DNA of 64,000 bases from Gemmatimonadales bacterium. Lineage in GTDB: Bacteria; Gemmatimonadota; Gemmatimonadetes; Gemmatimonadales; GWC2-71-9. How positions within the stretch are numbered: position 1 is the first letter of the stretch; each line of letters starts with the position of its first letter. Of this stretch, positions 12,404-16,700 are shown in pieces. Under the pieces are notes generated by a model that saw only the letters and a program-made list of their open reading frames with translations, was not told the DNA's origin and did no database searches. The stretch lies in contig JAHBVU010000016.1 of assembly GCA_019637315.1 (NCBI GenBank), forward strand, positions 1-64,000, in the 5' to 3' direction. The position numbers and the translations under genes were made by a program.

Positions 12404-13063
12404 CTAGGTCCGCGAGTACGTCAAACCGTGGCGATGAGCCACCTCGAACGCCACCACCATCGCCGGCACGACGACCACCCCGGGGAGCAGGTTCGCACGC
12501 AACTCCGCGTCGATGGCAGCGGCGTTCCCGCCGCTGCCCGCCAAGCGGCTTACCCAGACCCGCAGCGCGTTGTTGCACAAGAGGAAGGTCGCCCCGCGGC
12601 TGTGCAGGCTCGCAATGTTGGCGTCCCTGAAGTAGCCGTTCATGAAGACCGGATCACCCTCGGCGGGTCGGTTGAACCAGTTCCGGACCAGCGGTTGCTT
12701 GGTAGCCGGATCCTCGATCCCAAGCGCGGCCCCGGCGTTGTACTTGGCCCACATGGCATCGTTCCAAGCCAGCGGGACCGTCCCCCCATAGAACGTCCCG
12801 ACCACGCTGATGTCGGAGCCCGGCACCTGGTAGACCGATTTGAGGGTCTCGATGAAGTTGTGCATGTGGATCAGCGGCAAGCCCCCGCCATGGGCATTGA
12901 AGTCGAAGAGCTGCCGATGGCTGCCTTTGACACCGAGAACCCAGCGATCCGCCTCATGCACCTTCGGCTGCTGCGCGCCGACCGGGTCGGCCGCTACCGC
13001 CCCCGCAGCGAGAGTACCCAGTCCGGCCAGAAACCCTCGTCGCTTGATCCGTTCGAACAGCAT
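12404..13063 (-). CDS. Tat-exported DsrE-like protein
   Basis: 219 residues. The N-terminus has a twin-arginine signal (KRRGFLAGLGTLAAGAVA), so a folded and possibly cofactor- or sulfur-carrying protein is sent to the periplasm. The body has the alpha/beta DsrE/DsrF-like layout: VLGVKGSHRQLFDFNAHGG, then IHMHNFIETL, VVGTFYGGTVPLAW, and ATFLLCNNALR, where Cys163 matches the position of the conserved sulfur-binding cysteine of DsrE/TusD. It is the only cysteine I see outside the signal region. It lies 28 bases downstream of the TsdA-like cytochrome gene on the same strand, so a role in sulfur handling with that enzyme is likely. The exact reaction is not known. Confidence 0.7.
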   Translation of the reverse strand: MLFERIKRRGFLAGLGTLAAGAVAADPVGAQQPKVHEADRWVLGVKGSHRQLFDFNAHGGGLPLIHMHNFIETLKSVYQVPGSDISVVGTFYGGTVPLAWNDAMWAKYNAGAALGIEDPATKQPLVRNWFNRPAEGDPVFMNGYFRDANIASLHSRGATFLLCNNALRVWVSRLAGSGGNAAAIDAELRANLLPGVVVVPAMVVAFEVAHRHGLTYSRT

Positions 13064-13091
13064 CGGTTCCTCCTTCGCGCCGCGGCGCGTG

Positions 13092-13958
13092 CTAACGACC
13101 GGCCGGCGCTCTGCCGGCCTTGGTCGGATATGCTACATCCGGGGGAGGATCTCCCTTGGGCCAGTCCTCGGCCTTACGCGCAAAGTCGGGCCGAGATCGG
13201 GACACCATGTACCCCGCAATGTCGAACGCCTCCTGGTCGCTCAGCGACCCCTTGGCGTCAAAAGGCATATTAGCCCGAAGGAAGGCGGCTGCCGTGCGAA
13301 GCCGCGCCATACCCGCGCCGATCGAATAGGACTCGGCACCCCAGAGCGGCGGATAGTACGCCGGGAAGCTGTCTGGATGCGGGTTGACCATGCCCTCCCC
13401 ATTGGCCCCGTGACAGCGGGCGCACTGCTGGACATACAACAGGCGGCCGCGTACGGTATCGGGTACCAGTGGCTCCAATTGACGGAACCCCTGCCCCGGA
13501 ACCTCCCCCGGCGGAGCAACGTCGCGTGAGAGGAATGCCATATATGCGATGATATCGGTCATATCCCGACCATCCCGAGGTAGACCCTTCCCCACCAGGC
13601 TTCGCTCGAAGCAGTCGTTGATCCGGTCCTCGATCAGATTGACCTTGGCGTTCCGAGACCGGTACTGGGGGAACCTGCTGTAGATCCCGACCCAGGGCGC
13701 TGCATGGGGAAGCGTCCCGTTCTCGAGGTGGCAGCTGGTGCAGTTGAGGCGGTTCCCGACGTAGTCGGGGAGGCTGTCGCGCGTCGAGGCCAGGATGGCC
13801 CGGCCCCGCCGAATCGAGACGCCAACCGGTCCCTCGGGAATCTCGGCATCGGTGGGGACCCGGAAGGCGAGCGCCTCCGCTACCGGTGGAGCCGCTTCGG
13901 GAGGCGACCCGCACGCCGCCAGCCCCGCCAGGACGAGACAGAATGTGGTTCGGCGCAT
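13092..13958 (-). CDS. tsdA: Diheme cytochrome c lipoprotein, thiosulfate dehydrogenase (TsdA)-like
   Basis: 288 residues with a lipoprotein signal (lipobox LAAC, Cys16). There are two heme c sites, CTSCH (73-77) and CARCH (179-183). Around the first heme are the TsdA hallmarks APWVGIYSRFPQYRSR and RINDCFERSLVGKGLP; the Cys116 in this last motif is a candidate for the unusual cysteine heme ligand of TsdA. The second domain ends with ANMPFD, a probable methionine ligand. TsdA enzymes interconvert thiosulfate and tetrathionate in the periplasm. The two-heme length and motif order fit; assignment of direction and substrate is from family knowledge. Heme attachment would need the ccm genes seen at 53.7-55.9 kb. 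Confidence 0.8.
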   Translation of the reverse strand: MRRTTFCLVLAGLAACGSPPEAAPPVAEALAFRVPTDAEIPEGPVGVSIRRGRAILASTRDSLPDYVGNRLNCTSCHLENGTLPHAAPWVGIYSRFPQYRSRNAKVNLIEDRINDCFERSLVGKGLPRDGRDMTDIIAYMAFLSRDVAPPGEVPGQGFRQLEPLVPDTVRGRLLYVQQCARCHGANGEGMVNPHPDSFPAYYPPLWGAESYSIGAGMARLRTAAAFLRANMPFDAKGSLSDQEAFDIAGYMVSRSRPDFARKAEDWPKGDPPPDVAYPTKAGRAPAGR

Positions 13959-14001: not shown

Positions 14002-14346
14002 TCAGCGAGAATGACTGTAGATCAGATCGATCAGCTCGTCGTACATCGCATCGGCTTTGGCGCCGTCGGCGCGGATCGCATGCGTGGCGCAGTGCCGGAG
14101 ATGGTTCCGCATCAGCTCGCGACCCACCGACCGGAGCGCCTCATGCACCGACGCAATCTGCGTCATGATGTCGGCGCAGTATCGCTCCTCCTCGACCATC
14201 CGGGCCAAACCGCGGACCTGCCCTTCGATCCGCCGCAGCCGCTTGAGGTTGCGCATCTTGCGTTCGGGGTCGACCGCGATGGCCTTGCGCCCGTCGCCGG
14301 GCTGCGCCGCACAGCCGCATTCGGCTGCCTCGATTGGTTCCGTCAT
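14002..14346 (-). CDS. csoR: CsoR-family copper-sensing repressor
   Basis: 114 residues. After a Cys-containing N-terminal extension (ECGCAAQPGD) comes the all-helical CsoR fold beginning RLRRIEGQVRGLARMVEEERYC. The Cu(I) ligand set is Cys57, His82 and Cys86, with the 25/4 spacing of characterised CsoR proteins (RYCADI ... NHLRHC). This distinguishes it from RcnR/FrmR relatives. The start codon overlaps the copA stop as ATGA, so it is translated from the copA transcript and probably autoregulates that operon through the site at 16715-16733. The N-terminal CxC is an addition that could also bind metal. Confidence 0.9.
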   Translation of the reverse strand: MTEPIEAAECGCAAQPGDGRKAIAVDPERKMRNLKRLRRIEGQVRGLARMVEEERYCADIMTQIASVHEALRSVGRELMRNHLRHCATHAIRADGAKADAMYDELIDLIYSHSR

Positions 14347-16700
14347 GCCACCGCTCCTTCAGGTACCCTCCGGCTGCGCGGCCACCAGCCCCGCAGCCGG
14401 AGGGAATTGGACACCACGCTCACCGACGACAATGCCATCGCGGCACTCGCAATGATCGGACTGAGCTGCAGCCCGAATACCGGGTAGAGGACTCCGGCCG
14501 CAATCGGAATACCGACCACATTGTAGATGAACGCCCAGAACAGGTTCTCACGCATCGTCCGCACCGTCCGCCGCGACAACGCCACCGCATCCGCAACGGC
14601 GTCGAGGTCGGCGCGCATCAGAGTCATGTCGCCGGCCTCGATGGCAATGTCGGTTCCCGACCCCATCACGAGCCCGACATCGGCCTGGACCAGCGCGGGC
14701 GCATCGTTGATGCCGTCGCCCACCATGGCCACCACCCGACCCGCCCGCTGACGCCGCGAGACCTCCTCGATCTTCTGATCCGGCAAACGATCGGCCATCA
14801 CGTCGTCGATCCCAACCTGAGCGGCTACCGCACGCGCCGTTCGCTCCGCATCGCCCGTCAGCATCACGACCTCGAGGCCCATGCCCCGAAGCCGCTCAAC
14901 CGCAGCGCGTGAGCTCTCGCGCGGTCGATCGGCGACGGCAATCAGCCCCACCAACTGCCCGTCGACGGCGACATAGCTCACCGTGGCGCCCTGCCCGGCC
15001 AGGAGGGCCGCATCCTCACCGAGCGGGGCGACCCGCAAGCCGTAGTCGTCCATCAGCTTCGCATTCCCCACCGCCACGGCGCGACCATCGACCAGCCCCA
15101 CCGCGCCCTTCCCGGCAATCGCCTCGAACTGCTCCGCACCTGCGAGCACCCGACCGCCAGCCTCGGCGTGGCGAACGATCGCCTCGCCCAGCGGATGCTC
15201 GGATCCCTTCTCGAGCGCAGCCGCCATGGTCAGGACCTCATCCTCGCTCCCGGCCTCGGCCGCCACCACCGCCGCGACATCGGGACGGCCCTGCGTAATC
15301 GTCCCGGTCTTGTCGAGAATCACCGTGTCGAGCGCCTGCGCCCGTTCGAGCGCCTCGCCCCCTTTGATGAGCACCCCAAGCTCAGCACCCTTGCCGGTAG
15401 CAACCATCACGGCTGTCGGAACCGCCAGTCCCATGGCGCAGGGGCAGGCAATGATCAGCACCGAGATGGCTGCAGTCATGGCCCGCACAAATGCCGCGTC
15501 GTCGACCAGTACGAACCAGGCGACGAAGGTGACGACGGCAATTGCCACGACAACAGGTACGAAGACGGCACTGATCCGGTCGGCCAAACGCTGAATCGGG
15601 GCCCGCGTTGCCTGCGCATCCCGCATCAGCTTGACGATTCGCGCCAGCACCGTGGCCGATCCGATCGCCGTCGTTTCGAGGGTGACACTGCCCGTCCGGT
15701 TGATGGTTCCCCCGATCATCGACTCGCCCGGACCGCGCGACACCGGCAACGGTTCACCCGTGACCATCGACTCGTCGACCGCAGTCGTGCCCGATCGAAT
15801 CACACCATCGACCGGCACCCGCTCGCCGGGACGAATGACGACCCGATCGCCGACGACGACCTGATCGAGAGGAACTTCGATTTCGAGCCCATTGCGAATT
15901 ACCCGGGCCTGCTTGGGACTGAGATCGATCAGGCTGCGAATGGCGCGACCGGTTTGCCGCTTGGCGCGCGCTTCGAGCGCCTGCCCGGCCAGCAGAAAGC
16001 CGAGAATCAGGATCACGGCTTCGTAGTAGACGTCGGCCATCAGGCCGCGCGTCAGGTAGACGTCGGGGGCCACCGTCGCAACCAGACTGAGCAGAAACGC
16101 CGCCCCGGTGCCCAGCGCCACCAGGGTGTTCATGTTGGCGGTCCGGTGGCGCAGTGCCGTCCAGGCTCGGGTGTAGAAGTGACGTCCTGCCCAGGCCACT
16201 ACCGGCACGGTCATGCCCAGCAGGCTCCAGCGAAGCAGGTCGGCCGGGGCGGCATAAAGCGCCGGAAACCACGCCGCCAGCGGCCCCCCGATGACCCGGT
16301 CGGCCCACGCCATGATCGGGTCGACGGCGCCGTGGTGCCCGCCCGTCGCCATCAACGGCATCGATACCAGCATCGCAATTGCGCCAAGCGCGAGACTGAT
16401 CAGTGCCTTGGTGCGGTAGGACCGGTACTCGCGGTCCTGGGCATGGTCGAGCGCCCGTTCGGCCGCCTCTGCCGTCTCGTCGACCGCCGGCAGCGTCGCG
16501 CCATAGCCGGAAGCCTCGATGACCTCGATCAACCGGTTCGGGGAGACGGCGGCCGGGTCGAACTGCACGGTCGCGGCGTGGGTCATCAGGTTGACCGAGG
16601 CCGATTCGACCCCAGGAGTCCGGTCGAGCGACCGCTGAACCCGCCCCTGACAGGCCGCGCAGGTCATGCCTTGAACGGAAAGAGTGACAGTGTCAGACAT
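14343..16700 (-). CDS. copA: Copper-exporting P1B-type ATPase CopA
   Basis: 785 residues with a complete set of P1B-1 features. There is one N-terminal HMA domain (GMTCAACQ, Cys14 and Cys17), the membrane copper site CPC at 419-421, the phosphorylation motif DKTGT at 463-467, the TGE actuator motif (MVTGEPLPV), an HP dipeptide in GSEHPLGEAIV and GDGINDAP at the hinge. Eight TM helices fit the sequence. A His-rich loop (GGHHGAVDP) lies between the first helices. It exports Cu(I) from the cytosol at ATP expense. csoR is coupled downstream. No copZ chaperone gene is next to it. Confidence 0.95.
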   Translation of the reverse strand: MSDTVTLSVQGMTCAACQGRVQRSLDRTPGVESASVNLMTHAATVQFDPAAVSPNRLIEVIEASGYGATLPAVDETAEAAERALDHAQDREYRSYRTKALISLALGAIAMLVSMPLMATGGHHGAVDPIMAWADRVIGGPLAAWFPALYAAPADLLRWSLLGMTVPVVAWAGRHFYTRAWTALRHRTANMNTLVALGTGAAFLLSLVATVAPDVYLTRGLMADVYYEAVILILGFLLAGQALEARAKRQTGRAIRSLIDLSPKQARVIRNGLEIEVPLDQVVVGDRVVIRPGERVPVDGVIRSGTTAVDESMVTGEPLPVSRGPGESMIGGTINRTGSVTLETTAIGSATVLARIVKLMRDAQATRAPIQRLADRISAVFVPVVVAIAVVTFVAWFVLVDDAAFVRAMTAAISVLIIACPCAMGLAVPTAVMVATGKGAELGVLIKGGEALERAQALDTVILDKTGTITQGRPDVAAVVAAEAGSEDEVLTMAAALEKGSEHPLGEAIVRHAEAGGRVLAGAEQFEAIAGKGAVGLVDGRAVAVGNAKLMDDYGLRVAPLGEDAALLAGQGATVSYVAVDGQLVGLIAVADRPRESSRAAVERLRGMGLEVVMLTGDAERTARAVAAQVGIDDVMADRLPDQKIEEVSRRQRAGRVVAMVGDGINDAPALVQADVGLVMGSGTDIAIEAGDMTLMRADLDAVADAVALSRRTVRTMRENLFWAFIYNVVGIPIAAGVLYPVFGLQLSPIIASAAMALSSVSVVSNSLRLRGWWPRSRRVPEGAVA

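Follow-up and report, generated by a model that had tools for sequence, protein, structure and literature searches.

What would a thiosulfate dehydrogenase of the TsdA type do with an exported DsrE-like protein encoded by the next gene? The question is raised by a pair of genes in a 64,000-nucleotide stretch of DNA from a Gemmatimonadales bacterium (GenBank assembly GCA_019637315.1, contig JAHBVU010000016.1, positions 1 to 64,000), referred to here as the window. The name thiosulfate dehydrogenase is carried by two kinds of proteins, the diheme cytochrome TsdA and the heme-free TSD of Acidithiobacillus, which have been presented in a review as alternatives belonging to different bacteria. According to PMC4423706, TsdA works via a cysteine S-thiosulfonate that is resolved by a second thiosulfate. 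TSD is known from AFE_0042 of A. ferrooxidans, a heme-free, tetrathionate-forming thiosulfate dehydrogenase (PMC6335251), and its structure, mechanism and electron acceptor are described as open in reviews (PMC6335251, PMC10859504). In the A. ferrooxidans pathway figure of PMC10859504, an electron acceptor, taken here to be that of TSD, is marked with a "?".

Even though these two kinds of thiosulfate dehydrogenase are held as alternatives, in the locus described here, and in many others, a TsdA and a member or distant homolog of the TSD family look like operon partners. The parts of this picture are already known. The new element with respect to the open-access literature is the partnership together with a DsrE fold attributed to the TSD family, since we found no earlier report, in open-access full text, that pairs TsdA with a TSD-type protein or assigns the DsrE fold to TSD.

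The TsdA-type cytochrome and its neighbours

The tsdA-like reading frame is followed downstream, after 28 bases, by the second gene of the pair, both on the minus strand (Table 1).

Table 1. Genes of the locus, with positions in the window and the evidence for each assignment.
Feature	Coordinates	Strand	Length	Evidence and remarks
Tat-type exported protein with predicted DsrE fold, distant TSD homolog by profile	12404..13063	-	219 aa	NF052225, hhalign, AlphaFold2 model
TsdA-type diheme c-type cytochrome	13092..13958	-	288 aa	phmmer match to 4wq7, Pfam SoxA-TsdA_cyt-c, ligand residues
CsoR/RicR-type metal-sensing repressor	14002..14346	-		PF02583, 98.2 bits; upstream of tsdA, 43-base gap
Copper-type P-type ATPase CopA	14343..16700	-		TIGR01511, 605.5 bits (cut-off 397)

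By every sequence test made, the cytochrome is a TsdA. Its residues 29-264 match A. vinosum TsdA (4wq7) in a phmmer search with an E value of 4e-58, a similarity far above chance level, and the same search finds the fused enzyme 5lo9 (E 3e-41), whose organism, M. purpuratum, and fused state are taken from PMC9774590. The SoxA-TsdA_cyt-c family of Pfam (PF21342) is matched with 38.0 bits against a cut-off of 27. Two CxxCH motifs are found at residues 73-77 and 179-183, and the alignment assigns Cys116, within the stretch RINDCFERS (residues 112-120), as the ligand of heme 1, and Met231, directly preceded by Asn230, as the ligand of heme 2. Both motifs and both ligands are kept in 41 of 41 TsdA rows from the phylum and in 54 of 54 other TsdA rows of the alignment, whereas Asn230 is kept in 30 of the former and in all of the latter. 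The original prediction, which had seen thiosulfate dehydrogenase motifs and a candidate cysteine heme ligand in RINDCFERS, is borne out on both points.

The likeness to the known TsdAs of A. vinosum, C. jejuni and M. purpuratum thus comprises full-length homology, both heme motifs, the heme-1 cysteine and the heme-2 methionine, with an Asn-Met pair as in C. jejuni. A. vinosum TsdA has Lys at the position of Asn230; accession 4wqc, with Asn like the window protein where 4wq7 has Lys, scores slightly higher than 4wq7. Contrary to the known enzymes, the window TsdA has no adjoining TsdB gene but a gene for a DsrE-fold protein instead, and it is possibly a lipoprotein, as its N-terminus, read by eye, looks like a lipoprotein signal (LAAC at residues 13-16). 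An assignment of the reaction direction from the Asn-Met pair at heme 2 was attempted and dropped. PMC5146829 describes an Asn254-Met255 pair at heme 2 of C. jejuni TsdA, with Met used as ligand, in an enzyme biased to tetrathionate reduction, whereas PMC9237845 presents Asn as common at this position in proteobacterial thiosulfate dehydrogenases. In view of the latter, the pair in the window TsdA decides no direction.

Upstream of tsdA, the repressor gene is overlapped by copA. The repressor reaches 90.8 bits with the RicR model, below the cut-off of 175. A copper link of the gene pair through CopA and CsoR was considered and rejected: the synteny of CsoR and tsdA is limited to the genus, where it is present at loci L152, L169 and L170 and absent at L153, and the two genes are 1.7 kb apart in L152. 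CopA probably serves a separate copper function. A terminator-like site just upstream of copA (16776-16752, minus strand) is weak, with one such site found against 2.4 in shuffled sequences.

The DsrE-fold partner

The N-terminus of the partner carries a twin-arginine motif, KRRGFLAG, whose two arginines are kept in 42 and 40, respectively, of the 44 phylum homologs compared and in all 19 TSDs; the score with the Tat model TIGR01409, 13.1, falls just short of the cut-off of 16.7. The only cysteine, Cys163, lies in the sequence LLCNNAL and recurs without exception in the 63 homologs compared (24 TsdA-adjacent, 20 non-adjacent and 19 TSDs). The motif at this cysteine is mostly CNN or CNV in the phylum, with CNNA in the window partner, and CHN in 19 of 19 TSDs. 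The Tat signal and the single cysteine at a conserved position, both part of the original prediction, are therefore upheld. The Tat route is the usual one for proteins folded before export, and a carrier without a cofactor would give no reason for its use.

The designation "DsrE-like" holds for the fold but not for the sequence family. The partner matches no Pfam family up to an E value of 1, including PF02635, and PF02635 has no match in the window's genome either, whereas the same search was positive in 8 of 14 control genomes. A PDB sequence search with the window family gave no convincing match; the weak matches to deoxycytidylate hydroxymethylase (E 0.013) and to Cas5fv were regarded as fortuitous. 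The AlphaFold2 model (pLDDT 90.8 overall, mostly above 93 in the mature part), compared with known structures by VIA-align and also by Foldseek, predicts instead a DsrE fold. The VIA-align Z scores are 13.3 for ST0148, 13.2 for MTH1491, 11.2 for YchN, 9.9 for a TusBCD chain, 9.3 for a DsrEFH chain and 8.9 for SSO1126, with the first ten rows between 8.9 and 13.4 and the next row, unrelated, at 4.3. In the model, Cys163 sits at a strand end, before a helix, and the cysteine in the CSNTL motif of MTH1491 matches its position, although in a weak sequence match. Whereas it shares the fold with the DsrE/DsrF/TusD proteins (MTH1491, ST0148, YchN, TusD, DsrE, SSO1126), the partner differs from them in being exported and longer, in having inserts between the core elements, in lacking PF02635 and in being encoded beside TsdA. 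A cytosolic sulfur relay of the DsrE/TusD kind was considered and discarded in view of the export signal and the lack of a PF02635 match in the genome.

The only strong match of the partner to a named family is to NCBIfam NF052225, thiosulfate dehydrogenase (49 bits, E 4.9e-13), far below the cut-off of 300 bits. Seven of eight phylum homologs scanned with this model score between 23 and 65 bits, and one has no match. NF052225 was presumably built on AFE_0042, and the TSD of A. ferriphilus (L147), a relative of AFE_0042, scores 407.7 bits, above the cut-off. A profile-profile comparison by hhalign joined the phylum family to TSD with a probability of 99.5% (E 1.2e-22, 166 columns); its input consisted of 26 phylum homologs, from 30 loci after leaving out L010, L011, L026 and L027 as near-copies, and of seven TSDs, the six scanned with NF052225 all being above its cut-off. 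By these profile comparisons, the window partner is distantly homologous to TSD, the thiosulfate dehydrogenase without heme. The original prediction is thus partly supported, being right in outline but with periplasmic TSD, and not cytosolic DsrE or TusD, as the reference family.

The homology to TSD (AFE_0042 of A. ferrooxidans) extends over most of the mature protein, and the two proteins share a twin-arginine leader, the lack of a heme motif, a single invariant cysteine and a clustering with TsdA. In contrast, TSD has CHN where the partner has CNN, and the RRRDF stretch at the N-terminus of TSD is absent from the partner. An AlphaFold2 model of a true TSD reached a pLDDT of only 46.3, for which our guess is a rather uniform underlying alignment, and a PDB sequence search with TSD gave no convincing match; with such a model, it is only through profile homology to the window family that the DsrE fold is attributed to TSD.

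Such a homology could mean that the partner is itself a thiosulfate dehydrogenase like the TSD of Acidithiobacillus, with TsdA as its electron acceptor or, in a variant, as a second enzyme for another range of concentration or pH. A diheme cytochrome from the same operon would indeed fill the acceptor gap of TSD. However, 49 bits are set here against a cut-off of 300, the CNN of the partner against the CHN of every TSD compared, and a protein with one cysteine shows no visible redox cofactor. Besides, a review describes Acidithiobacillus genomes as lacking TsdA, so TSD works there without it, and altogether we regard this explanation as unlikely.

Co-occurrence and gene order in the phylum

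The two genes are found together or not at all in nearly every genome of the phylum. With presence called at E values up to 1e-3 for the partner (140 of 298 genomes) and up to 1e-10 for TsdA (141 of 298), 139 genomes have both genes, 156 have neither, and three have one alone, namely the partner in G257 and TsdA in G031 and G218. Each gene is present in 46 of 119 genera. The association has a phi of 0.98, with a Fisher p of 1e-82 that ignores kinship and should not be read literally. The pair, seen originally at one locus, thus recurs across genomes. Within the window's family, sampled as a complete listing of 71 genomes, 28 have both genes, 42 neither, none the partner only, and one, 66% complete, TsdA only, with a patchy presence between genera.

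Gene order is less constant than co-occurrence. Of the 28 family genomes that have the two genes, 19 have them as neighbours, always on one strand and with 14-108 bases between the match ends, and in the remaining 9 they are not adjacent. Phylum-wide, at least 39 of 150 listed TsdA places have a partner gene at a distance of up to 3 kb; among these 39 listed pairs, 38 are on the same strand and 34 have the partner downstream. Among 30 TsdA loci fetched, the partner gene was inside the 1.5-kb flanks in 13. In two relatives from the same genus, G132 and G040, the tsdA neighbourhood is the same but no partner gene lies beside tsdA, each genome having a homolog elsewhere.

In a tree of 63 rows, made of 44 phylum homologs and 19 hand-picked TSDs, the TSDs form one clade, and the TsdA-adjacent copies are found in several branches, requiring seven changes, at least four of them forced by well-supported branches; the pairing is therefore not one recent event. 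The sample also contains 20 phylum homologs (of 44) that are not TsdA-adjacent, and a genome may have up to eight matches to the partner.

Such additional copies can have their own settings. In G043, a genome with eight matches, tandem partner copies, one of them seemingly fragmented, lie upstream of tsdA (G043:C1:362438-363582). The window's genome has a paralog (G000:C12:52883-53527, locus L171) whose cysteine lies in a CDLA motif. From a reading of the nearby open reading frames, its neighbours may be a multicopper oxidase, a beta-lactamase and an acyltransferase.

TSD clusters outside the phylum

Across the 84,980 species genomes scanned, TSD was found at 266 places, the best 80 of which (loci L072-L151) were analysed with up to 6 kb of DNA on each side, 22 of these loci being shorter than 12 kb. 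The set is weighted towards Burkholderia, Paraburkholderia and Caballeronia, to which a hand count assigns 28 of the 51 loci with TsdA. TsdA was near TSD in 51 of these best 80 loci, sharing its strand in all but one of the 51 and with a median gap of 1.9 kb, whereas DoxD was present in 12, none of them with TsdA, and neither was found in 17 (Fisher p 9e-7 for the exclusion, kinship ignored). A substrate-binding protein was encoded in 63 of the best 80 loci.

TSDs above the NF052225 cut-off are plasmid-borne in Paraburkholderia, Bradyrhizobium, Methylobacterium, Bosea, Methylocella and Gluconobacter. The first four of these genera have a TsdA homolog near TSD, that of Paraburkholderia being 36% identical to the window TsdA, along with a substrate-binding protein and a cytochrome resembling TsdB, which is fused in Bosea. 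Methylorubrum thiocyanatum DSM 11490 (L121), which can be cultured, likewise has both tsd and tsdA. In the Gluconobacter cluster, DoxD takes the place of TsdA. For many lineages, this distribution contradicts the view of TsdA and TSD as alternatives, since TSD or its distant homolog shares both genomes and clusters with TsdA.

Other sulfur genes were seen in some of these clusters. SoxB-like metallophosphatases are encoded in L067, L115, L119 and L124, with TsdA also present in L067, L119 and L124; those of Bradyrhizobium (L067:6986-8431) and of L124 score 326 and about 325 bits, respectively, with TIGR04486, below the cut-off of 550. In A. ferriphilus (L147:2476-3795), a tetrathionate hydrolase gene (PDB 6l8a, E 8e-44) is directly upstream of TSD.

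That the pair travels together in so many bacteria suggests teamwork. It could also reflect a common physiology, in which lineages meeting thiosulfate keep both genes, co-regulated where they are neighbours, without any contact between the proteins. The nine family genomes with the genes apart would fit such a situation, as would homologs with other neighbours, such as the paralog near a putative multicopper oxidase in the window's own genome. However, NosZ, a patchy respiratory trait present in 102 of the 298 genomes and used here as a control, has a phi of 0.25 with TsdA, against 0.98 for the partner; the partner is downstream on the same strand in 34 of the 39 listed pairs; and the combination recurs with true TSD outside the phylum. 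We give the common-physiology explanation only a small chance.

A third possibility would make the partner a repair or maturation factor of TsdA, one that frees the heme-ligating cysteine of TsdA from a stray sulfane or thiosulfonate, for example, or aids assembly. An off-pathway S-sulfane adduct is described for SoxAX in PMC4423706, the partner offers one cysteine of a reactive type in the same compartment, and a dependence of the partner on TsdA would fit the co-occurrence. We nevertheless consider this role highly improbable, since a homolog that occurs with DoxD and without TsdA in 12 of the best 80 TSD loci cannot be TsdA-specific, and since recombinant C. jejuni TsdA is described, in PMC5146829, as active without a partner.

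A possible thiosulfate/tetrathionate module

Since TSD occurs with TsdA or with DoxD, and never with both in a fetched cluster, it is best read as a sulfur-chemistry partner for which TsdA or DoxD would provide the electron route. Drawing on the observed identities of the two proteins, the fold, the invariant cysteine, the export signals, the co-occurrence, the pairing and the sharing of TSD between TsdA and DoxD, we tentatively propose, with slightly less than even confidence, that the two genes of the window encode a periplasmic thiosulfate/tetrathionate module in which the partner exchanges thiosulfonate with TsdA. TsdA would be the electron-transferring enzyme, binding thiosulfate at the heme-1 cysteine and letting two electrons exit via heme 2. 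The sulfur side would belong to the DsrE-fold partner, whose Cys163 would become a Cys-S-thiosulfonate, either by exchange with the adduct on Cys116 of TsdA or from tetrathionate, and would then hand its thiosulfonate over to a second thiosulfate or to a further acceptor. For a protein that has a single invariant cysteine and lacks any cofactor motif, forming a Cys-S-thiosulfonate would be the natural chemistry.

We infer the sulfur exchange between the two proteins by analogy. DsrE3A of Metallosphaera cuprina, a protein of the DsrE family, forms a Cys-S-thiosulfonate with tetrathionate, according to PMC4175335, and for SoxAX, PMC4423706 presents SoxYZ as the carrier that probably resolves an adduct analogous to that of TsdA. 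On the other side, the TsdAs of A. vinosum and C. jejuni are functional in published work without a DsrE-fold partner, and these, together with the G132 and G040 loci without an adjacent partner, the phylum homologs that are not TsdA-adjacent (20 of 44) and the multiple matches per genome, count against the proposed module.

If the module exists, TSD and its homologs would be the sulfur-handling half of it, and TsdA or DoxD the electron half. The confident DsrE-fold model of the homolog would then turn the mechanism of TSD into a testable one, with one cysteine and one partner, and would offer a candidate for the electron acceptor.

A more far-reaching reading, parallel to Sox, would be a carrier-bound oxidation of thiosulfate. 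TsdA would conjugate thiosulfate onto a DsrE-fold carrier replacing SoxYZ, the SoxB-like hydrolase would cut sulfate off this carrier in Bradyrhizobium (L067), Hyphomicrobiales (L119) and Afipia (L124), and what is named a heme-free "thiosulfate dehydrogenase" in Acidithiobacillus would be such a carrier, assayed apart from its electron partner. Taken jointly, these three propositions are decidedly unlikely. The system resembles SoxAX-SoxYZ in having a cytochrome of the SoxA family with a heme-ligating cysteine beside a periplasmic one-cysteine protein. SoxY, however, has its cysteine on a C-terminal arm, whereas that of the window partner is internal, and no similarity was seen between the partner and SoxYZ. 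In Erythrobacter flavus, TsdA and SoxB together convert thiosulfate to zero-valent sulfur, as stated in PMC7608252.

Other sulfur and respiratory genes of the window's genome

A candidate SoxB in the window's genome was rejected: its match of 108 bits is far below the cut-off of 550 and, as the same search was positive in 10 of 14 control genomes, it was read as a relative among the nucleotidases. SoxY (PF13501) had no match in the window's genome, nor in the control genomes, and no YeeE-type transporter was found in the window's genome. The same genome encodes a NosZ of the TIGR04246 type (G000:C5:34805-36607; 895.7 bits against a cut-off of 625), which makes nitrous oxide a possible electron acceptor of this bacterium.
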